From Actinotalea ferrariae (GTDB taxonomy: Bacteria; Actinomycetota; Actinomycetes; Actinomycetales; Cellulomonadaceae), in assembly GCF_019733465.1 (NCBI RefSeq), contig NZ_JACVQL010000150.1:1-32920 (forward strand): a DNA stretch of 32,920 nt. Reading direction: 5' to 3'. Each line of letters starts with the position of its first letter. The stretch's first letter is position 1. This document shows positions 2,494 through 30,255 of the stretch, in pieces. Made by a program: the position numbers and the translations under genes. Under the pieces are notes generated by a model. That model did no database searches. It saw nothing but the letters and a program-made list of their open reading frames with translations, and had not been told where the DNA came from.

Positions 2494-4590
2494 GTGACCA
2501 CGCACGAGCCTGCACCCACCCACGAACCGGTGACCCTGCGCATCGCCGGCCGGGAGGTCCCGGTCGTCACGGCGACCACCGTCGTCGTGGGCACGGGATC
2601 CGCCGGGTTCTGCGCGGCCGACCGCCTGTGGGAGCTGGGCCATGACGACGTCGTCATGGTCGCGGACAAGGTCAACGCGGGGTCGAGCCGCAACGCGGGC
2701 TCGGACAAGCAGACCTACTACAAGCTCACGCTCTCCGGGGGCGACGGCGACTCGGTGCGCGAGATGGCCGAGACGCTGTACTCCGGTGGCGCGATGGACG
2801 GTGACAACGCGCTCGCGGAGGCCGCGCTCTCCGCACGGGGCTTCCTGCGCCTGTGTGACCTGGGCGTGCCGTTCCCGCAGAACCGGTACGGCGAGTTCAT
2901 CGGCTACAAGACCGACCACGACCCCCGCCGCCGGGCGACGTCGGTCGGGCCGTACACGTCGCGCTCGATGGTCGAGCAGCTCGAGAAGAAGGTGCACCGC
3001 AACGGCACGCGCATTTTTGACGAGTGCCGCGTGGTCGAGGTGCTCACCCGGCCGGCGCCCGACGGCGGCCGCGAGGTGACGGGCCTGCTCGTGCTCCGGA
3101 CGGACGTGCACGTGGACCCCGCGGACCCGACGGCGTCGCCGTTCCTGCTCTTCCGCTGCTCGAACCTCGTCTACGCGACGGGCGGCCCGGCCGGGATGTA
3201 CGCGACGCGCGTGTTCCCCAACGGTCAGTGGGGCGCGTCCGGCGCGGCGTACCGGGCCGGCGTGCACGGCAAGAACCTCACCGAGTGGCAGTTCGGCCTC
3301 GCGTCGACCAAGCCGCGCTGGAACGTCTCGGGCACGTACATGCAGGTCATCCCGCGCTTCGTCTCGACCGACGCCGACGGCGGCGACGAGCGCGAGTTCC
3401 TCACCGAGGCGATCCCCGACTACGGCCGCCTCATGTCGCTCGTCTTCCTCAAGGGCTACCAGTGGCCCTTCGACATCCGGAAGGCGGTCGACGGGTCCTC
3501 GCTCGTCGACCTGCTCGTCTACCGCGAGACGGTGCTCCGCGGGCGCCGCGTGTTCCTCGACTTCCGCCGCAACCCGGTGCGCGACGAGTTCGACCCCAGC
3601 GCGCTCTCGCCCGAGGCGTACTCCTACCTCGAGCGCGCGGGCGTGCTCTTCGGCACACCGATCGAGCGCCTGCGGCGCATGAACGAGCCCGCCTACCAGT
3701 TCTACCTGGGCAAGAACCCGTACGTGGACCTGGAGCAGGAGATGCTCGAGGTCGACGTGTGCGCGCAGCACAACAACGGGGGCCTCCTCGTCGACGCGTG
3801 GTGGCACTCGAACGTCACGGGCTTCTTCCCGGTCGGCGAGGCGGGCGGCGCGCACGGCGTCTACCGGCCCGGCGGCGCGGCGCTCAACAGCGGGCAGGTC
3901 GGCGCGACGCGTGCGGCGCAGTTCATCGCGGCCCGGCGCGGCCCCGACGTCGTCCCGCCGGGGGAGGGGTTCGACGACACCGCCGCGGCCGCCGTCGAGG
4001 GAGCGCACGGCCTGGTCGCCGCGGCCACGGCGCGGGCGGCGTCGGGCGTGCCCGACAACACCGGCGACCTCCTGCGCGACGTCGGCGTGCTCATGAGCGC
4101 CAAGGCCGGCCCCGTGCGCTCACCCGCGTCGGTGCGCGAGGCGCTCGAGCAGGTCACGGCGTGGCTGGGGGAGTACTCGGACCTCGTCTCGGCCGACGGC
4201 GGCTCGCGCCGGGCGGTCAACCGCACCTTCCTCGTGCGCGACATCCTCACGACGGCGTACGTCTACCTGCACGCGATGGTCGACTACGTCGAGCACGGCG
4301 GGCGCTCGCGCGGGTCGGTGCTCTACACCGACCCCGACGGCTCGCTGCCGCACCGCGGGTACGGCCCCGACGCCGACGCCGAGCTCGACCTGCCGGAGAT
4401 CTTCCGGTTCCGGCTCGACGGCGGTGCGCTCGACGACGAGGTCCAGGAGGCGTCGTGGTCGCCCGACGGCGGCTCGGGCGAGGAGGGCGCGACGACGCTC
4501 CGGTGGCGGCCGCGTCGCCCGATCCCCGAGGACGACGACTTCTTCGAGAACGTGTGGCGCGAGTTCCGCGAGCACGGCAACGTCCACTGA
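2494..4590 (+). CDS. FAD-binding oxidoreductase, fumarate reductase/aspartate oxidase flavoprotein type
   Basis: A 698-residue flavoprotein. The Rossmann dinucleotide motif GTGSAG is at residues 33-38 after a short N-terminal strand, followed by AGSSRNAGSDKQ, matching the flavin-attachment region of the succinate dehydrogenase/fumarate reductase/aspartate oxidase superfamily. Toward the C-terminus, FFPVGEAGGAHGVYRPGGAALNSGQVGA is the expected second FAD-contact segment, followed by a helical domain. No signal peptide, haem site or iron-sulphur cysteines are visible, so it is probably soluble. GTG 2494 was chosen because it opens the first plausible strand; the ATG far upstream lies inside the SDR gene. 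Together with the SDR and SGNH protein it probably oxidises a carbohydrate-related compound, which is inference. It is longer than aspartate oxidase (about 540), so it is unlikely to be NadB. Confidence 0.85.
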   Translation: MTTHEPAPTHEPVTLRIAGREVPVVTATTVVVGTGSAGFCAADRLWELGHDDVVMVADKVNAGSSRNAGSDKQTYYKLTLSGGDGDSVREMAETLYSGGAMDGDNALAEAALSARGFLRLCDLGVPFPQNRYGEFIGYKTDHDPRRRATSVGPYTSRSMVEQLEKKVHRNGTRIFDECRVVEVLTRPAPDGGREVTGLLVLRTDVHVDPADPTASPFLLFRCSNLVYATGGPAGMYATRVFPNGQWGASGAAYRAGVHGKNLTEWQFGLASTKPRWNVSGTYMQVIPRFVSTDADGGDEREFLTEAIPDYGRLMSLVFLKGYQWPFDIRKAVDGSSLVDLLVYRETVLRGRRVFLDFRRNPVRDEFDPSALSPEAYSYLERAGVLFGTPIERLRRMNEPAYQFYLGKNPYVDLEQEMLEVDVCAQHNNGGLLVDAWWHSNVTGFFPVGEAGGAHGVYRPGGAALNSGQVGATRAAQFIAARRGPDVVPPGEGFDDTAAAAVEGAHGLVAAATARAASGVPDNTGDLLRDVGVLMSAKAGPVRSPASVREALEQVTAWLGEYSDLVSADGGSRRAVNRTFLVRDILTTAYVYLHAMVDYVEHGGRSRGSVLYTDPDGSLPHRGYGPDADAELDLPEIFRFRLDGGALDDEVQEASWSPDGGSGEEGATTLRWRPRRPIPEDDDFFENVWREFREHGNVH

Positions 4591-4608
4591 GCGCCGGCTG
4601 ACATCCTC

Positions 4609-5874
4609 GTGGGCGTGATGCGCGACGTGCCGCTCGGCGGCGTGGCCGGGGGCAGTGGTCCCGTCGCCGTGCCCGTGGAGGTGCGGGGCGTGGCCGAGGT
4701 CGAGCAGACGTCGGACGGGCTCGTGCTGCACCGGCTGCCGCCCGCCGCCCGCGCCCAGATGCCCGACGACTTCGTCCGCATGTGCGAGGAGCAGCCGTCC
4801 GGCGTGCGGCTCGCCTTCCGGACGGCGGCGCGCCGCGTCGAGCTCGACGTCCGGCTGCGGCGGACCCTGTCGGTCAACCGGCCGTCCGGCGAGCCGGGCG
4901 TCGTCCCGCCCGCGCAGGCGTGGGAGGCGGTGGCGGACGGCGTCGTCGTCGACACCGTCGTGCCGGGCGACGGGCACGGACTGGTCGAGATGGACTACGC
5001 CACCCGCCGCGGCCGGTGGACGCCGGCGCCCGTCGAGACGCTCTCGTTCGACCTGCCGGCGGGCGAGAAGGACGTCGAGCTGTGGCCGGCCTTCGGCGAG
5101 GTCGTGACGCTCGTCGCGCTGCGGGCCGACGACGACGTCGCGACGTCTCCGCCCGCCCCCCGCCCGCGCTGGGTGCACCACGGCAGCTCGATCAGCCACG
5201 GCGCCTCGGCGGACCGGCCCACGGGCACGTGGCCCGTCGTGGCGGCGAGGTCGCTCGGGCTCGACCTGGTGAACCTCGGCTTCTCGGGCAACGCCGTGCT
5301 GGACCCGTTCGTGGCACGCGCGATCCGCGACCAGCCCGCGGACCTCATCACGCTCAAGCTCGGGATCAACGTGGTCAACCACGACGTCATGCGGCTGCGC
5401 GCGTTCGTCCCGGCGGTCGAGGGGTTCCTCGACACGATCCGCGAGGGGCACCCGACGACGCCGGTCGCCGTCGTCTCGCCGATCCTGTGCCCGATGGTCG
5501 AGGACTGCCCGGGCCCGACGTCGATCGACCCGGCCTCGCCCGCGACGGCGCCCGTGTTCCGCACGACCGGACGGCCCGAGGAGCTCGCCGAGGGCAAGCT
5601 GAGCCTCGGGGTGATCCGCGAGGCGCTCGCGGAAGTGGTCGCGCGGCGCTCGCCGTCGGACCCGCACCTGAGGTACCTCGACGGCCTCGAGCTCTTCGGC
5701 TGGGCGGCGTGGGACGCGATGCCCATGCCGGACCTGCTGCACCCCGACGCGGCCGGCCAGCGCCACATGGGCGAGCGCTTCGCCGAGCTGCTGCCGCAGC
5801 TGCTCCCCGGGCTGGTCCCGGCCGTGCTCCCGGCACGGGCCGGCGGGCGGCCCGCCACGACCCACGCCGGGTGA
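4609..5874 (+). CDS. SGNH/GDSL hydrolase with N-terminal beta domain
   Basis: A 421-residue predicted esterase. Residues 1 to about 180 form a beta-rich domain like the N-terminal part of SsfX3-type enzymes; the rest is an SGNH hydrolase. Block I is HHGSSISHG (Gly192-Ser193-Ser194, Ser194 the likely nucleophile), block II GFSGNA supplies the Gly, block III KLGINV supplies the Asn, and block V DLLHPD supplies Asp375 and His378. Family members remove acetyl or acyl groups from sugars or natural products. There is no signal peptide, so it would act in the cytoplasm, as expected for deacylating an imported saccharide. The GTG start at 4609 lies 18 bases after the FAD gene; ATG 4618 is an alternative nine bases in. 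Probably the last gene of the SDR-FAD operon. Confidence 0.85.
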   Translation: MGVMRDVPLGGVAGGSGPVAVPVEVRGVAEVEQTSDGLVLHRLPPAARAQMPDDFVRMCEEQPSGVRLAFRTAARRVELDVRLRRTLSVNRPSGEPGVVPPAQAWEAVADGVVVDTVVPGDGHGLVEMDYATRRGRWTPAPVETLSFDLPAGEKDVELWPAFGEVVTLVALRADDDVATSPPAPRPRWVHHGSSISHGASADRPTGTWPVVAARSLGLDLVNLGFSGNAVLDPFVARAIRDQPADLITLKLGINVVNHDVMRLRAFVPAVEGFLDTIREGHPTTPVAVVSPILCPMVEDCPGPTSIDPASPATAPVFRTTGRPEELAEGKLSLGVIREALAEVVARRSPSDPHLRYLDGLELFGWAAWDAMPMPDLLHPDAAGQRHMGERFAELLPQLLPGLVPAVLPARAGGRPATTHAG

Positions 5875-25333: not shown

Positions 25334-25424
25334 TGAGCGCTGGACGCGGAGGAGAGGCATCCGCAGCGGGGTGTTGTCGGCGGTCCTCGACGAGGATCAT
25401 GGGTTCGCCGAGCGGAGGTGTGGC

Positions 25425-26231
25425 ATGACGCAGGACGAGCGCGTCGCCGAGTTCCGCCGTCTGCACGAGGACGGCTGCTTCGTGATGCCGAACCCGTGGG
25501 ACGTCGGCACGGCACGCGCGCTGGAGCAGCTGGGCTTCCCCGCTCTCGCCACGACGAGCTCCGGCTTCGCGTGGACCACGGGTCGGCCGGACACCGTGGT
25601 CCCGCTCGACGAGGTGCTGGCGCACCTGCGTGCCGTGGCGAGCGCCGTGGGCGTTCCGGTCAACGCGGACTTCGAGGGCGGCTACGCGGTCGACGCGGAC
25701 CAGGTCCACGACAACGTGGCGCTCGCCGTGGGCACGGGCATCGCCGGCCTCTCGATCGAGGACTCGACCGGCGACCCGGACGAGCCGCTGCACGACGTCG
25801 ACCTCGCCCTCGACCGCATCCGCGCTGCGCGCGCGGCGATCGACGCGAGCGGTACGGGTGTCGTCCTCACCGGCAGGTCGGAGGGCCTCGTCGCCGGACG
25901 TCCGGACATCGACGAGATCGTGCGTCGCCTGCGCGCCTACGCCGAGGCCGGCGCCGACTGCCTCTACGCGCCGCGCGCGACCGAGGTCGAGCACATCAGG
26001 GCGATCATCGCGGCGGCCGGGCCCAAGCCGGTGAACCTGCTGATCAACGCGCCGTTCATGACGATGGCGGAGGCCGCGGAGCTGGGCGTGCGGCGGATCA
26101 GCGTCGGCGGGACGCTCGCCCGTGCGGCGTGGGGCGGCTTCCTCGCGGCGGCGCGCGAGATCGCGGACGCCGGAACCTTCACTGCCTTCACCGGCCTGCC
26201 CGACGTCGACGGGCTGATGAGCCCGGGCTGA
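25425..26231 (+). CDS. Isocitrate lyase/PEP mutase family protein
   Basis: A 268-residue TIM-barrel protein of the PEP mutase/isocitrate lyase superfamily, whose members make or break C-C or P-C bonds next to a carboxylate using magnesium. The metal and substrate segments are VMPNPWDVGTARAL, TTSSGFAWTTGRPD, NADFEGGYA, GLSIEDSTGD, VLTGRSEGL and LYAPRATEVEHI. This short form lacks the KKCGH-type catalytic loop of isocitrate lyase, so it is not AceA. Oxaloacetate decarboxylase, 2-methylisocitrate lyase-like or carboxyphosphonoenolpyruvate mutase-like activity are all possible; genomes carry many uncharacterised copies. ATG 25425 has GGAGG upstream, and an upstream in-frame ATG at 25371 would add unrelated residues. 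It stands alone. Confidence 0.88.
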   Translation: MTQDERVAEFRRLHEDGCFVMPNPWDVGTARALEQLGFPALATTSSGFAWTTGRPDTVVPLDEVLAHLRAVASAVGVPVNADFEGGYAVDADQVHDNVALAVGTGIAGLSIEDSTGDPDEPLHDVDLALDRIRAARAAIDASGTGVVLTGRSEGLVAGRPDIDEIVRRLRAYAEAGADCLYAPRATEVEHIRAIIAAAGPKPVNLLINAPFMTMAEAAELGVRRISVGGTLARAAWGGFLAAAREIADAGTFTAFTGLPDVDGLMSPG

Positions 26232-26285
26232 ACGCGTCCGGCGCCCGTTCGTCGTTCGCCTGCCAGGGGAGCCGCGCACCACGGC

Positions 26286-26422
26286 CGGTCAGCCGCCCGA
26301 CCGGCGGTCGATGCCGAGGGTGGCGATGAGGTCCTCGTGCAGCTCGAACCAGACGCGGTGGCACGAGTCGACGTCGGTGCCGTCGACCCAGCCCGGCTCG
26401 CCCGCGCGCGCGCGGCGGAGCG
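26286..26422 (-). pseudogene. Duplicated 3' end of the HTH-type gene at 27927 (direct repeat, left copy)
   Basis: These 137 bases match 27924-28060 with six substitutions (about 96% identity) and in the same orientation. They encode the same C-terminus (GEPGWVDGTDVDSCHRVWFELHEDLIATLG, then I or V, DRRSGG) with the same stop. Upstream sequence in this copy does not match the intact gene, so it is a 3' fragment. Three of the differences cluster in the last 20 bases of the match. With the copy at 27924 it brackets a segment of about 1.5 kb. Confidence 0.8.
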
Positions 26423-26739
26423 GCATCGAGAAGGCGCGCGGTGCGGAGCAGGATCCGCTGTGAGCGCGGTTGGTTTGTTTAACAGCGTACGGACAGTTTC
26501 CTCGGCGCCGCCGGGCGGGGAGAATTGGCAAGAAGCGGCTGTCGGTCAGGATCGGCCGACTTCTGCCCCGAGCTCGGGTAGCAGCAGGCGCCGGGCACCG
26601 GCCTGATCCGCAGGTCTATCGCCTCGCCTGTGACACTCCAACCGCCGGTCGATCACGACGCTGAGGTGCTCCGAGCACGATTCGGCCGCCCCACGGGCAT
26701 GATGCTCCAAAAGGGCCCGCTGCCCGCATCAGAGGAGGC
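26423..26739. other. Gene-free left part of the insert
   Basis: This 317-base stretch has no reading frame with coding character. Its composition is less GC-biased (for example GGTTGGTTTGTTTAACAG). Near its right end, read leftward, GGGC, five bases, GCCC and TTTT (26725-26709) form a weak terminator for the three-gene operon. I see no integrase or transposase fragment. Confidence 0.5.
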
Positions 26740-27012
26740 TCACGGCCGCTCGATCTGCCTCCACAGGTCATGGACGAGTTTTTTTCCGCCTCCGTCTTCA
26801 ACGCCGTGATAGATTCCGCGCATGAACGCCATGGTCGCGGCTGCGGCGCCATCGATTTCCCACTTGCAGTCGGCAAATTCGCAGCCCTCGATGCCCACCT
26901 GGCTACTGCCGCTGTACACGAGCGTGCACCGTTCGAAGTGACACTCCACGAACCGCTTCTCGTCGAGTTCGATCCTGGCGTCTTCGAAGCGTGCGCCCCT
27001 AAATTCCTGCAT
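26740..27012 (-). CDS. Pentapeptide-like beta-solenoid small protein
   Basis: A 90-residue protein with rungs such as FRGARFEDARIELD, KRFVECHFERCTLVYSG and GIEGCEFADCKWEIDG, i.e. F/C/L at every fifth or so position, followed by a helical end TMAFMRGIYHG...LVHDLWRQIE. This pattern belongs to a widespread family of short uncharacterised beta-solenoid proteins often found on plasmids and islands (family resemblance from memory, not searched). Cytoplasmic, no signal. ATG 27012 begins one base after the stop of the preceding gene and has GAAGGAAGG upstream. It is the third gene of a three-gene operon within the low-GC insert. Codon use is markedly less G/C at third positions than in neighbouring genes. 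The function is unknown; protein binding or phage/plasmid-related protection are guesses. Confidence 0.8.
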   Translation of the reverse strand: MQEFRGARFEDARIELDEKRFVECHFERCTLVYSGSSQVGIEGCEFADCKWEIDGAAAATMAFMRGIYHGVEDGGGKKLVHDLWRQIERP

Positions 27013-27013
27013 G

Positions 27014-27451
27014 CTAGCCTTCCTTCGTCTCACGAGTTGGCGGGTCCGCACGGTGACGGTTCCCTCGTGCAATCACCGTTGCTTCACCATTGTTCTCAAT
27101 GGCGATGGGCCCGTTGAACCAATTTCGGTCTGCCACGACGGTCGCTCTACTGCCCGGCTCGATTACCAGCCCGCCACCATTTATTACATTCCCGACCATT
27201 TGCAGATTGCCGTCACCGACGACGCGCAGAACGCCCGGCCCGTGCGTGCCTGACGAGCTCTGCGCGGGCGCCGAATCCGACTCGGACTTCAGCCTCGCGC
27301 GCGCGCGTCCCGTTATGCCAGCGAACATCGGAACCAAGGCCGCAATCCCGCCGCAAGTTCCGCAGGTTGAGGTCTCATGCCGTCGGGCAATGGGCCGGCT
27401 CTCCTCAAAGCGATGGCCACCGTCGATGCAACGATACTCATACAGGGGCAT
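27014..27451 (-). CDS. FmdB-like zinc-ribbon protein with C-terminal solenoid
   Basis: A 145-residue protein. Residues 1-40 (MPLYEYRCIDGGHRFEE, then STCGTCGG) resemble the FmdB zinc ribbon. Canonical members have two CxxC pairs, but here the second Cys of the first pair is Gly11, leaving Cys8, Cys30, Cys33 and possibly His13. A disordered Ser/Ala/Gly linker (about residues 55-70) follows, then a repetitive GNLQMVGNVINGGGLVIE, RATVVADRNWFNG and EATVIARGN stretch that looks like beta-solenoid rungs. ATG 27451 directly abuts the TAA of the preceding gene, so translation is coupled. It sits in the middle of the three-gene operon in the insert. A zinc-ribbon joined to a solenoid suggests a nucleic-acid or protein-binding adaptor; this is inference. 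Confidence 0.75.
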   Translation of the reverse strand: MPLYEYRCIDGGHRFEESRPIARRHETSTCGTCGGIAALVPMFAGITGRARARLKSESDSAPAQSSSGTHGPGVLRVVGDGNLQMVGNVINGGGLVIEPGSRATVVADRNWFNGPIAIENNGEATVIARGNRHRADPPTRETKEG

Positions 27452-27781
27452 TTACCGCTCCCGCCGCGGCGCGCGTCGTTGGCGGTTGCGCCGGAAGGTC
27501 GAGTTTCGCGCCTCCCCATGGATGAACCCATCCGTTCCTTCCGACTCATTGTCTTCGAACAATGAGTCATGGAACTTTCCCTTAGCAAAAAAGGATGGGG
27601 CGGCGGGGTCGGCTTCTCCCTTGCGTCCGGCGAGTAGCCCGATCGCCGACAAGGCGAAAAAGACCACGGAGACTACAAGCAGCAACCAGAACATGCTCCC
27701 TTCAGCAACGAAGATAGCAAATAGGAAGCTAGGGATGGCTAGAAGAAGCGGCGAGAGCCTACCCAGCGTCTGAACGGTCAT
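27452..27781 (-). CDS. Two-helix membrane protein with short solenoid-like tail
   Basis: A 109-residue protein with two hydrophobic segments (LLLAIPSFLFAIFVA and MFWLLLVVSVVFFALSAIGLLAG, about residues 11-27 and 30-52), so probably a hairpin in the membrane, followed by a soluble tail FFAKGKFHDSLFEDNE, GFIHGEAR and NSTFRRNR. The spacing of F, S and N in the tail echoes the beta-solenoid pattern of its two operon partners. It is the first gene of the operon; ATG 27781 lies just inside the insert. Codons such as TCA, TTG, GAA, AAT and CGA are used freely, unlike the surrounding genome, suggesting horizontal origin. No family or function is recognised; a membrane anchor for the other two proteins is plausible. 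Confidence 0.75.
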   Translation of the reverse strand: MTVQTLGRLSPLLLAIPSFLFAIFVAEGSMFWLLLVVSVVFFALSAIGLLAGRKGEADPAAPSFFAKGKFHDSLFEDNESEGTDGFIHGEARNSTFRRNRQRRAPRRER

Positions 27782-27923
27782 GCGACGACGCTAGCGCGGC
27801 GCGATGTCGCCCAACAGAGTGTCTTGGTGCCTTGTCGCCGTCTCCTCGACGTGTGTCGCTCCGCGGTCTTGTCGGGAGGGGCGGGAGTAGAAGCGCCAGG
27901 CTGTCAACCACGTGAGCCAATGA

Positions 27924-28060
27924 CGGTCAGCCGCCCGACCGGCGGTCGACGCCGAGGGTGGCGATGAGGTCCTCGTGCAGCTCGAACCAGACACGGTGGC
28001 ACGAGTCGACGTCGGTGCCGTCGACCCAGCCCGGTTCGCCGACGCGCGCGAGGCGGAGCG
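27924..28060 (-). repeat. 137-bp direct repeat, right copy
   Basis: This is the intact 3' end of the HTH-type gene at 27927 and matches 26286-26422 at 131 of 137 positions, same orientation. Together the two copies bracket the low-GC segment, as happens when an element integrates at a gene end and restores it, or after a partial duplication. Confidence 0.8.
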
Positions 28061-28574
28061 CCGCGGAGTAGCGGGCGTCATAGCCCTGCAGCCGGACCAG
28101 CACGGCGCCGAGGCGCTCGGCGAGCGGTGCGAGGGAGCGGTCGATGTCGGCGAGCTCGTCGAGCACGCGCGCGTCCCAGGCGCTGTCGGCGTGGTCGTTG
28201 ACGGCGAGCGCGTCGCCCCCGGCGGGACGGAGCTGCCAGTCCGTGCACGCGCGCTGCAGCCGGGCGTTGAGCGGCAGGAAGGCGCCGTGCACGTCGCGGA
28301 CGTCGTCGGCGCCCTCCACCGAGGCGAGCTCGGCTGCGAGCCGGCGCTCGTCCTCCGCGCGCCCGCGGTCGGTCAGGGACCAGCCGCTCAGGTCGCCGAA
28401 GGCGGAGTGCTGCACCCAGCCGCGCGCCTCGGCGTCGAGCAGGTCCTCCTCGGTCTCCGCGGGGTCGAGCCCGAAGCGCCGCGCGACGACGTCTGCGGTG
28501 CCGAACCCCGTGATGCGGACCGCGTGCAGCACGAGCAGGTCGCGCGGCGACGTCGCGGGCGTGCGGGCACTCAT
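27927..28574 (-). CDS. Winged-helix transcriptional regulator-like protein
   Basis: A 215-residue protein. Residues about 10-75 (DLLVLHAVRITGFGTADVVARRFGLDPAETEEDLLDAEARGWV, then DLSGWSLTDRGRAEDER) form a winged-helix domain; the rest is helical, ending HRVWFELHEDLIATLGVDRRSGG. It is probably a regulator or nucleic-acid-binding partner of the PEP-synthase-like gene that lies divergent beyond the next gene. ATG 28574 overlaps the stop of the upstream HTH gene as ATGA, so they form a coupled pair. Its last 137 bases are duplicated at 26286, across the insert. The gene is intact here. Confidence 0.8.
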   Translation of the reverse strand: MSARTPATSPRDLLVLHAVRITGFGTADVVARRFGLDPAETEEDLLDAEARGWVQHSAFGDLSGWSLTDRGRAEDERRLAAELASVEGADDVRDVHGAFLPLNARLQRACTDWQLRPAGGDALAVNDHADSAWDARVLDELADIDRSLAPLAERLGAVLVRLQGYDARYSAALRLARVGEPGWVDGTDVDSCHRVWFELHEDLIATLGVDRRSGG

Positions 28575-28990
28575 GAGCTGCCGCCCTGCCGTGCCGTCAG
28601 CCGGGAGAAGTGCTGGTGGCACGCCTGCGGTGAGTTGAAGCCCATGGCCTCGGCGATCTGCGCCCACGTCAGTCCCGCGCCGCGTGCGGCGAACAGCAGG
28701 CCGGCCTCGAGGCCGTCCGCCTCGGCCCGCGCCGCGGGGAGGAGCGCAAGCGACTCGAGGAGGTCGTCGGGCGCCAGCTCCGCCGACCGCCACAGGGCGA
28801 AGTGCGCGAGGTCGGTCGCCGACGGCGGCACGGGCCGCGGCCGCCACGGCCGCGGCTCGAGCCCGTCCGCGCCGAGCGCGAGGAGCCGGCGGCTCGCCTG
28901 GCGCTCACGCTCCGCGCGCGCTCGGTCCGCCCTAGCCAGGTCGGCCTTGTCCGCGTGCGCGCGGTGGGCGTCGTCGTCCTTGCTCTGCAT
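28571..28990 (-). CDS. Small HTH protein
   Basis: A 139-residue protein: a charged helical N-terminus (KDDDAHRAHADKADLARADRARAERERQ), then a helical domain, and a C-terminal helix-turn-helix-like GAGLTWAQIAEAMGFNSPQACHQHFSRL. It probably binds DNA. ATG 28990 was chosen because the next gene starts at its stop by ATGA overlap and the upstream frame extends into the PEP-synthase-like gene. It is divergent from that gene by 56 bases, with palindromes between them, so it may regulate it. The pair of HTH genes and the divergent PEP-synthase-like gene look like one functional module. Confidence 0.8.
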   Translation of the reverse strand: MQSKDDDAHRAHADKADLARADRARAERERQASRRLLALGADGLEPRPWRPRPVPPSATDLAHFALWRSAELAPDDLLESLALLPAARAEADGLEAGLLFAARGAGLTWAQIAEAMGFNSPQACHQHFSRLTARQGGSS

Positions 28991-29046: not shown

Positions 29047-30255
29047 GTGATCGTCGAGCTGCGTGACGCCGTCGTGCCGACGTGCGGCGGCAAGGCCGGC
29101 GCGCTCGGGGCGCTGGTGCGCGCGGGGCTGCCCGTGCCGGACGGCTTCGCCGTGCCGCTCGACGTGCATCGCGCCGCCGCTCGGCAGGGTGCTGACCGCT
29201 CCGTCCCGCCTCGCGCGGGCGACGACGCACCGGAGTCGCTCCCGCTCCCCACCGGGTTGGTCGAGGCGCTCGCGGGCGGCCTCCGGGCGCTCGGTGACGT
29301 CCCGGTGGCCGTCCGGTCGTCCGCCATGGGCGAGGACACGGCCGAGGCCTCCGCGGCCGGCCAGCACGAGAGCGTCCTCGCCGTGAGCGGTGTCGACGAC
29401 GTCGTCCTGGCGGTCCGGGCGTGCTGGGCGTCACTCGACTCAGAGCGCGCGGCGGCCTACCGCGACGCGGCGCGCGGGGCGCCGTCGGCGGGGATGGCTG
29501 TGCTGGTGCAGCGCCTGGTGGACGCGGAGGTGTCGGGAGTGATGTTCACGGCGGCGGACCCGCGCGGCGAGACGCGGATCGAGGCGTCGTGGGGACTCGG
29601 CCCGAGCGTCGTCGGCGGCGTCGTGACGCCCGACGCGTACCGGGTCGCGGCCGACGGCGCGGTGACGCGCACGCTCGGCGACAAGCGCACGCGGCTCGAC
29701 CGCGTGGGCGGCGAGCTCGTGACCAGCGCCGTCGCCCACACCCGTCGGCACGCGCTCGACGACTCGACCCTGCGCGCGCTCGTGGCGCTCGGTCGGCGGA
29801 TCGCGACGCTGCTCGGCCGGCCGCAGGACGTGGAGTGGGCCCTCGCGGGCGGGACGCTGTGGGTGCTCCAGGCCCGTCCGGTCACGGCTGCGCCGCCACC
29901 GCCCGCGGCAGCCGTGCCGACCGCCACGGGCGGGGTGCTCACCGGGACGCCCGGCAGCGCCGGGACGGTCACAGGCCCGGCGCGGGTCGTGCGCGGCGCG
30001 ACCGACTTCCACCGCGTGCGGCCGGGTGACGTGCTCGTGTGCCCGTACACCGACCCGGCGTGGACGCCGCTGCTGCGGATCGTCGCCGGCGTGGTGACCG
30101 AGACGGGCGGGGTGCTGTCCCACGCCGCGATCGTGGCGCGCGAGCTGCGCATCCCCGCCGTCCTCGGCGTCACCGACGCGACCACGCGGGTCGACGACGG
30201 CGTGCACCTGACCGTCGACGGCGCCGCCGGCACCGTCACGCCCCGCGTCACGTGA
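29047..30255 (+). CDS. Two-domain PEP synthase-like protein (ATP-grasp plus swivelling His domain)
   Basis: A 402-residue protein with the N-terminal nucleotide-binding domain of PEP synthase/PPDK (GGKAGALGALVRAGLPVPDGFAV, VAVRSSAMGEDTAEASAAGQHES with Arg90, VSGVMFTADPRG-like segment, VEWALAGGTLWVLQARP) and the PEP-utiliser mobile domain (TETGGVLSHAAIVARELRIPAVLG, phospho-acceptor His359). The C-terminal barrel that binds PEP/pyruvate or, in rifampin phosphotransferase, the drug-binding layout is missing, so it is about half the size of those enzymes. It may phosphorylate a small molecule or its His domain may pass phosphate to a partner. GTG 29047 starts at the conserved strand. Divergent from two HTH genes. 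Substrate unknown. Confidence 0.87.
   Translation: MIVELRDAVVPTCGGKAGALGALVRAGLPVPDGFAVPLDVHRAAARQGADRSVPPRAGDDAPESLPLPTGLVEALAGGLRALGDVPVAVRSSAMGEDTAEASAAGQHESVLAVSGVDDVVLAVRACWASLDSERAAAYRDAARGAPSAGMAVLVQRLVDAEVSGVMFTAADPRGETRIEASWGLGPSVVGGVVTPDAYRVAADGAVTRTLGDKRTRLDRVGGELVTSAVAHTRRHALDDSTLRALVALGRRIATLLGRPQDVEWALAGGTLWVLQARPVTAAPPPPAAAVPTATGGVLTGTPGSAGTVTGPARVVRGATDFHRVRPGDVLVCPYTDPAWTPLLRIVAGVVTETGGVLSHAAIVARELRIPAVLGVTDATTRVDDGVHLTVDGAAGTVTPRVT

Follow-up and report, generated by a model that had tools for sequence, protein, structure and literature searches.

A small cluster of three genes in Actinotalea ferrariae raises the question of whether its members belong together and, if so, what they might do. 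We therefore examined a 32,920-nucleotide stretch of this genome (the window), in which the original prediction had described a tight operon with foreign codon use and bracketing repeats and had proposed that it encodes small solenoid-like proteins forming a selfish or defense module. All three of these structural features were confirmed. The genes run along the (-) strand from position 27781 to 26740 with gaps of only 0 and 1 base, as the TAA stop of gene 1 touches the ATG of gene 2, while the junction of genes 2 and 3 reads TAG-C-ATG (Table 1). Genes 2 and 3 are preceded by GGGAG and AAGGAAGG, respectively, unlike gene 1, which has no purine-rich sequence in front of its start, and a promoter and terminator scan found nothing. 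Each of the frames is open, tightly coupled, and exhibits a coding-type codon-position pattern. Their composition is clearly foreign. GC3 values were 0.67, 0.67, and 0.75, compared to 0.93-0.99 for 14 other window genes, and a CAI-like codon index yielded 0.18-0.29 versus 0.695-0.867 for the same 14 genes, which also served as its reference set. The three genes take up ~1,040 of the 1,490 bases located between the repeat cores, and this interval has a GC content of 62.3% compared to 73.9% for the rest of the window.

The repeat flanking the module is a direct repeat of 155 nt at 91% identity, with a core of 137 nt in which 131/137 positions are identical (left core, 26286-26422; right core, 27924-28060). 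It corresponds to the 3' end of a neighboring gene (28577-27930) together with a very short stretch past it, and the second copy lies on the opposite side of the module. Since the same-genus copies of this gene are at best 77% identical, the duplicate is either recent or derived from a close strain. In the same-genus comparison, two genomes (G008 and G018) retained the other-side neighbors of the duplicated gene; the PEP-mutase gene lay outside the stretches examined, so that no clean empty site could be seen. The surroundings of the module in the window are ordinary high-GC sequence with no adjacent phage genes. A PEP-mutase-family gene flanks it on one side (25371-26231; PF13714, 2e-70) and a PPDK_N/PEP-utilizer gene on the other (29047-30255; PF01326, 7.5e-60).

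Table 1. Positions of the features in the window and of the fused two-transmembrane-helix (2TM) proteins in other loci. PRP, pentapeptide-like protein.
Feature	Source	Position	Strand	Remarks
Gene 1	window	27452..27781	(-)	109 aa; ORF and translation
Gene 2	window	27014..27451	(-)	145 aa; ORF and translation
Gene 3 (PRP)	window	26740..27012	(-)	90 aa; ORF and translation
Left repeat copy	window	26279..26433		incomplete copy of the gene 28577-27930 3' end
Right repeat copy	window	27917..28071		overlaps the gene 28577-27930 3' end and runs slightly past it
Neighboring gene	window	27930..28577	(-)	without a Pfam match; its 3' end recurs on the other side of the module
Fused 2TM protein	L160	2501-3412		phage F116
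Fused 2TM protein	L161	2480-3397		RHEph21
Fused 2TM protein	L162	2501-3376		V. campbellii plasmid
Fused 2TM protein	L163	2483-3307		Paracoccus plasmid
Fused 2TM loci and second-profile matches	L166-L200			IMG/VR

Gene 3 encodes the PRP (P0003), which matched phrog_26297 over nearly its full length (E 9e-25; residues 1-89 align with positions 1-88 of the 93 in the profile), while its matches to two pentapeptide models were below their cut-offs. An AlphaFold2 model built from 19 aligned sequences (mean pLDDT 93.0, pTM 0.76) predicts a three-coil beta-solenoid of nine short strands, followed by a C-terminal hairpin of helices 55-70 and 72-88. A search with this fold returned two viral models at E<=0.001 and no PDB chain at that level. 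The first PDB matches were the luminal domains of SV2 (E 0.023 and above), which we set aside as generic solenoid matches, and AlbG, QnrB1, MfpA, and HalA were found at E 0.11-0.15, with AlbG at 0.11. Solenoid folds had been proposed for all three proteins, and it is gene 3 alone for which a confident model now predicts one. Gene 2 has an FmdB-type zinc ribbon (PF09723, 39.1 bits with a cut-off of 34.4, E 7.8e-10; it also matches TIGR02605) and a beta-rich tail after the ribbon. The ribbon reads C8xxG11 and C30xxC33, such that Gly replaces one of the four Cys that make up the two CxxC pairs of FmdB ribbons, and the structure model of the protein was poor (pLDDT 49) and too low for a fold search. 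Gene 1 encodes a protein with two predicted TM helices (9-27 and 33-51, by hydropathy) and an N/G/F-rich tail, which matched no family above its curated cut-off and no PHROG. Peptide-pattern scans, which miss distant relatives and covered a thin sample of genomes, detected no relative of gene 1 (P0001) in viral contigs and, with P0003 alone, none of the PRP in genome or viral contigs. In plasmids, tblastn with the gene 2 protein (P0002) found nothing at the limits used.

Relatives of the PRP did emerge from other searches. By tblastn, we identified a single phage record, EKP1, in which the PRP gene overlaps a gene for a 103-aa two-TM protein near lysis genes and an integrase. Three IMG/VR scans recovered 7, 15, and 14 loci, largely on the same contigs, and a genome scan recovered nine (three Phycisphaerales, one Pirellulales, three Enterobacterales, one Nitrospiraceae, and one Aurantimonas). 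All 19 members of the resulting PRP alignment (A7) match phrog_26297, as does P0003. We then scored 29 PRP loci with a hydropathy script, with the window included and L082, L086, and L088 left out; several of the 29 are close relatives and do not represent independent events. In 18 of these, a membrane-protein gene ends within 90 bases of the PRP start, and 17 of the encoded proteins have two predicted TM helices (the other, L033, has one). In L031, the PRP is itself fused to a TM helix; in the window, gene 2 lies between the 2TM gene and the PRP gene; and L046 has a downstream gene that appears by eye to be two-TM, which lies outside the hydropathy scoring. Eight scored loci showed no membrane partner (L016, L025, L038, L039, L040, L041, L042, and L085), one of which (L025) is at a contig edge. 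The homologues are thus not always unlinked, and solitary PRP genes also occur. The cluster is more than a chance arrangement: homologues of both the PRP and the zinc ribbon exist elsewhere, and PRP relatives are often found beside membrane-protein genes. As a separate observation, the same-phylum relative in L016 (1492-2300) is located downstream of a gene that looks HicB-like by eye, rather than a membrane-protein gene. Five further same-family genomes (among 221) also gave PRP hits, which we rejected as ordinary pentapeptide proteins, given E-values of 1e-4 to 1e-3 and ORFs of 209-497 aa; four of these matches were partial and one spans residues 4-88.

The pairing was also apparent from the membrane side. 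A profile of seven phage-type 2TM proteins (alignment A8), all of which match phrog_26238, identified 35 IMG/VR loci, and in 34 of them the PRP gene starts no more than 60 bases from the 2TM stop, with 27 distinct 2TM tails represented, though an ascertainment bias remains since the query was built from PRP-linked genes. The 2TM hits nevertheless included proteins with as little as 51% identity, and the weakest match among the linked PRPs had an E-value of 6e-18. In the 35th locus (L155), the two genes are separated by 1,917 bases (3297-5214), the edges of which resemble what we take to be IS1 ends. In phages, the PRP family thus regularly has a membrane protein at its side. For gene 1 of the window, profile comparison revealed no detectable homology to this phage 2TM family, as hhalign assigned a probability of 0.5% and gene 1 was absent at E<=10 from the search with the phage 2TM profile. 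Accordingly, the membrane gene of the window operon can be compared to the other cases only by analogy.

The same 2TM domain also exists in a second form, in which it is the N-terminal part of a longer protein. The phage 2TM profile matched four such fused proteins at E 3.8e-32 to 2.1e-41, and a second profile built from fused proteins again identified 35 IMG/VR loci. These divided cleanly: all 17 short 2TM genes have an adjacent PRP and are on contigs from the first 2TM search, all 17 long fused genes (F116 and H66 themselves included) have no adjacent PRP, and one further locus has no ORF. The fused proteins measure 274-305 aa, or 264-358 residues when counted from the NPLT motif. Their tails share 'FDA...VEVK' and related patterns, and 11 of 19 aligned tails (L171 was omitted from the parse) have a D..(E/D)xK-like pattern, presumably a PD-(D/E)XK motif, with the catalytic-type Lys lost in some. 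Neither Pfam nor the PDB contained a match for the tails, and the phage 2TM domain similarly has no PDB relative. We therefore refer to the tails as nuclease-like by motif only.

The PRP relatives mostly reside in mobile elements, as illustrated by EKP1, E. coli prophages, and the L145, L152, L153, and L156 contigs. A DNA search with one Citrobacter pair found matches in 38 of 5,426 E. coli genomes, all chromosomal, and 35 of these cover >=80% of the query. At the two of the 38 places that were read (N196 and IH5), the pair is in a prophage between holin/endolysin genes and the terminase. DNA methyltransferase genes are found in L152 and L156, and tail fiber and endolysin genes in L153. Most carriers look like tailed phages. 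The exception is L145, in which genes for Zot (phrog_197, 2.2e-93) and a minor head/receptor-binding protein (phrog_1698) are beside the pair and mark the contig as inovirus-like. The recorded host of EKP1 is Elizabethkingia, and its 2TM protein and PRP are 60-82% identical to those of enterobacterial-looking prophage contigs, so this host label may deserve a check. Thus, of the selfish or defense module originally proposed, the mobile-element context of the relatives is evident, while PADLOC had no profile match for P0001-P0003 and none for P0005, P0006, P0008, or four fused proteins (P0010-P0014); a role in defense is suggested by gene location.

From these results, we propose that the window operon is foreign cargo, which is tied through its PRP, and more loosely through its ribbon, to a temperate-phage module. 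The core phage form consists of a two-TM protein and a PRP produced from touching or overlapping genes. The 2TM protein would sit in the inner membrane, probably as an oligomer, and the PRP may form a rigid cap by docking onto the cytoplasmic tail of this protein. It appears to take the place of the nuclease-like domain that is present in the fused form, and the module might sense nucleic acid, or act upon it, at the membrane through which the DNA of rival phages enters. The window and one Nitrospiraceae genome additionally encode a zinc-ribbon protein that has a beta-rich tail, and gene 1 may perform the same job as the phage 2TM protein. Overall, we would assign a probability of roughly 0.4 to a membrane-tethered mobile-element module that detects nucleic acid, or works on it, at the inner membrane, with superinfection exclusion or abortive defense as its likeliest roles. 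A membrane-tethered function on nucleic acid or on proteins bound to DNA, most simply the exclusion of rival phages, is favored by the mobile carriers, the recurrent membrane partner, the location among accessory genes of prophages, and the replacement of the PRP by a nuclease-like tail. The TM helix fused to the PRP in L031, the HalA matches of most PRPs, and the three-gene set of the Nitrospiraceae genome are further points in favor, whereas the lack of a PADLOC match, the eight loci that show no membrane partner, and the closer profile match of the PRP to the topoisomerase-related AlbG than to HalA count against it.

Two small touching or overlapping genes on mobile elements, with the toxin-like membrane protein first and with frequent co-occurrence of both products, are also what would be expected of a toxin-antitoxin pair, in which membrane damage by the 2TM protein is prevented through direct binding of the PRP, and the module persists by addiction. 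We consider this unlikely. Addiction pairs are usual on plasmids, but tblastn with either P0003 or P0006 found no PRP in 72,556 plasmid records at the limits used. The solitary PRP genes and the Pantoea locus (L042), which keeps a PRP together with a 61-aa 2TM remnant, also speak against an antitoxin, as do the fused nuclease-like forms, which have no adjacent PRP. Among the solitary genes, those of three Phycisphaerales MAGs (L038-L040) all follow the same type of gene, presumably dCTP-deaminase-like, and have no membrane partner.

Solitary chromosomal PRPs, which are found in Phycisphaerales, Pirellulales, and a further planctomycete-side genome, suggest a use without a 2TM partner and raise a different prospect, namely a membrane scaffold or modulator of host functions that has no part in defense or addiction and whose PRP would attach to a protein of the host in the way that Qnr and MfpA bind gyrase. 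The best PDB sequence relatives of the PRP profile are AlbG and MfpA (AlbG, 2xt4, was first at 2.5e-4). The sporadic distribution of the family speaks against such a host function, as does the exchange for a nuclease-like tail. Besides the 38 E. coli genomes, PRPs were detected in 2/396 genomes of the window's phylum (its own included), 2/295 Nitrospiraceae-side genomes (the source and one weak, partial match), 1/337 Aurantimonas-side genomes (the source itself), and 5/198 Pirellulales-side genomes (the source included; one weak). A scaffold or modulator therefore strikes us as quite unlikely, and the exclusion reading remains our preference.

The location of the pair also bears upon the possibility that it regulates lysis, with a holin- or antiholin-like 2TM protein and a PRP that controls timing. 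The pair is beside holin, endolysin, or Rz genes in EKP1 and E. coli and beside an endolysin gene in L153, and gene 1 has a weak holin-like match (PF07332, E 0.081, far under the cut-off). However, separate holins are annotated in both EKP1 and E. coli N196, the inovirus-like L145 also carries the pair even though an inovirus would not lyse its host, and the window copy has no adjoining phage genes. Lysis control consequently seems improbable compared to a module acting at the membrane on incoming nucleic acid.

A second genome provided further insight into the zinc ribbon. The Nitrospiraceae genome UBA8639 (L045) has, directly one after the other and preceded by an HNH-like gene, the genes for a zinc ribbon, a 2TM protein of the phage type, and a PRP, which supports the linkage of all three components outside of the window, although the gene order differs (2TM-ribbon-PRP in the window and ribbon-2TM-PRP in L045). 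The L045 ribbon protein (P0008) matches PF09723 at 2.8e-9 and has a beta-helix-like tail (PF13229, 1.5e-5, just under the cut-off); it aligns with P0002 at E 2e-9 and 26% identity over 130 columns, most strongly in the ribbon. In 295 further genomes from the window's phylum, with up to 13 candidates scored per genome, no listed ribbon match extended past column 85 of 155, and none reached E 1e-10 in 197 other L045-side genomes. P0008 had two matches in viral contigs, both in the ribbon half alone. The trio of ribbon, membrane protein, and PRP is therefore based upon two cases. The HNH-like protein directly before the L045 cluster (751-1500) has relatives in eight plasmid and two phage records; the annotation tables read, from four of these ten records, list neither a PRP nor a 2TM gene. 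The HNH-like protein was left out as a fourth member. One could still argue that the three window genes came together by coincidence, as a foreign remnant with no joint function, given that gene 1 shows no relationship to the phage 2TM proteins, the gene 2 ribbon is short of one Cys, and FmdB ribbons are common (63/296 genomes), but the intact and tightly coupled coding frames and the recurrence of the set in L045 make this very unlikely.

If the exclusion reading is correct, it would describe a very small system common to both tailed and filamentous phages and would provide a frame for reading the three-gene foreign island of the window. In any case, two phage families of 'unknown function' are near-constant partners, and the membrane family alternates with a nuclease-like fusion. 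The function of the pair can be tested in E. coli K-12 with a gene pair of just 0.57 kb.

With regard to known systems, phrog_26297 and phrog_26238 are both listed as 'unknown function' and are not paired in PHROGs, and we found no description of a 2TM-PRP pair in the literature searched. AlbG, MfpA, and Qnr share the fold type and the repeat of the PRP, but they are ~180-217 aa in the PDB, whereas the PRP has only 90 aa, three coils, a helical hairpin, and a gene for a membrane partner. HalA is a membrane protein with a DNA-binding part and the effector of the Hailong anti-phage system. PRP residues 13-64 align without gaps to residues 81-132 of the HalA model (NF051894; PDB 9nyi) at E 1.1e-5, and it is the NCBIfam model hit by most PRPs (9/12 at E<=0.01). 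Nevertheless, the PRP scored 24.8 bits compared to a cut-off of 250, its fold matched HalA at E 0.15, and its profile matched the HalA PDB sequence at E 0.84. An identity of the PRP with HalA is rejected, as the score is a tenth of the cut-off and no PDB relative was found for the 2TM domain; a HalA-like mode of action serves as a lead. In the neighborhoods that were read by eye, we noticed no gene for HalB, the Hailong partner nucleotidyltransferase. One speculative extension, rather unlikely in our estimation, is a split, nucleic-acid-gated membrane effector in which a single 2TM anchor would be combined with either a nuclease-like domain or a detached mini-solenoid gripping nucleic acid or a DNA-bound protein. 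Such an effector would follow HalA-like logic with no nucleotidyltransferase, and the window and the Nitrospiraceae genome would have a three-protein version with a zinc-ribbon solenoid. The closest counterparts on the membrane side are the fused proteins of F116, H66, RHEph21, and two plasmids, which have the same 2TM domain as the phage pair, but as one protein with a tail that is PD-(D/E)XK-like by motif and, in the IMG/VR loci, no adjacent PRP.
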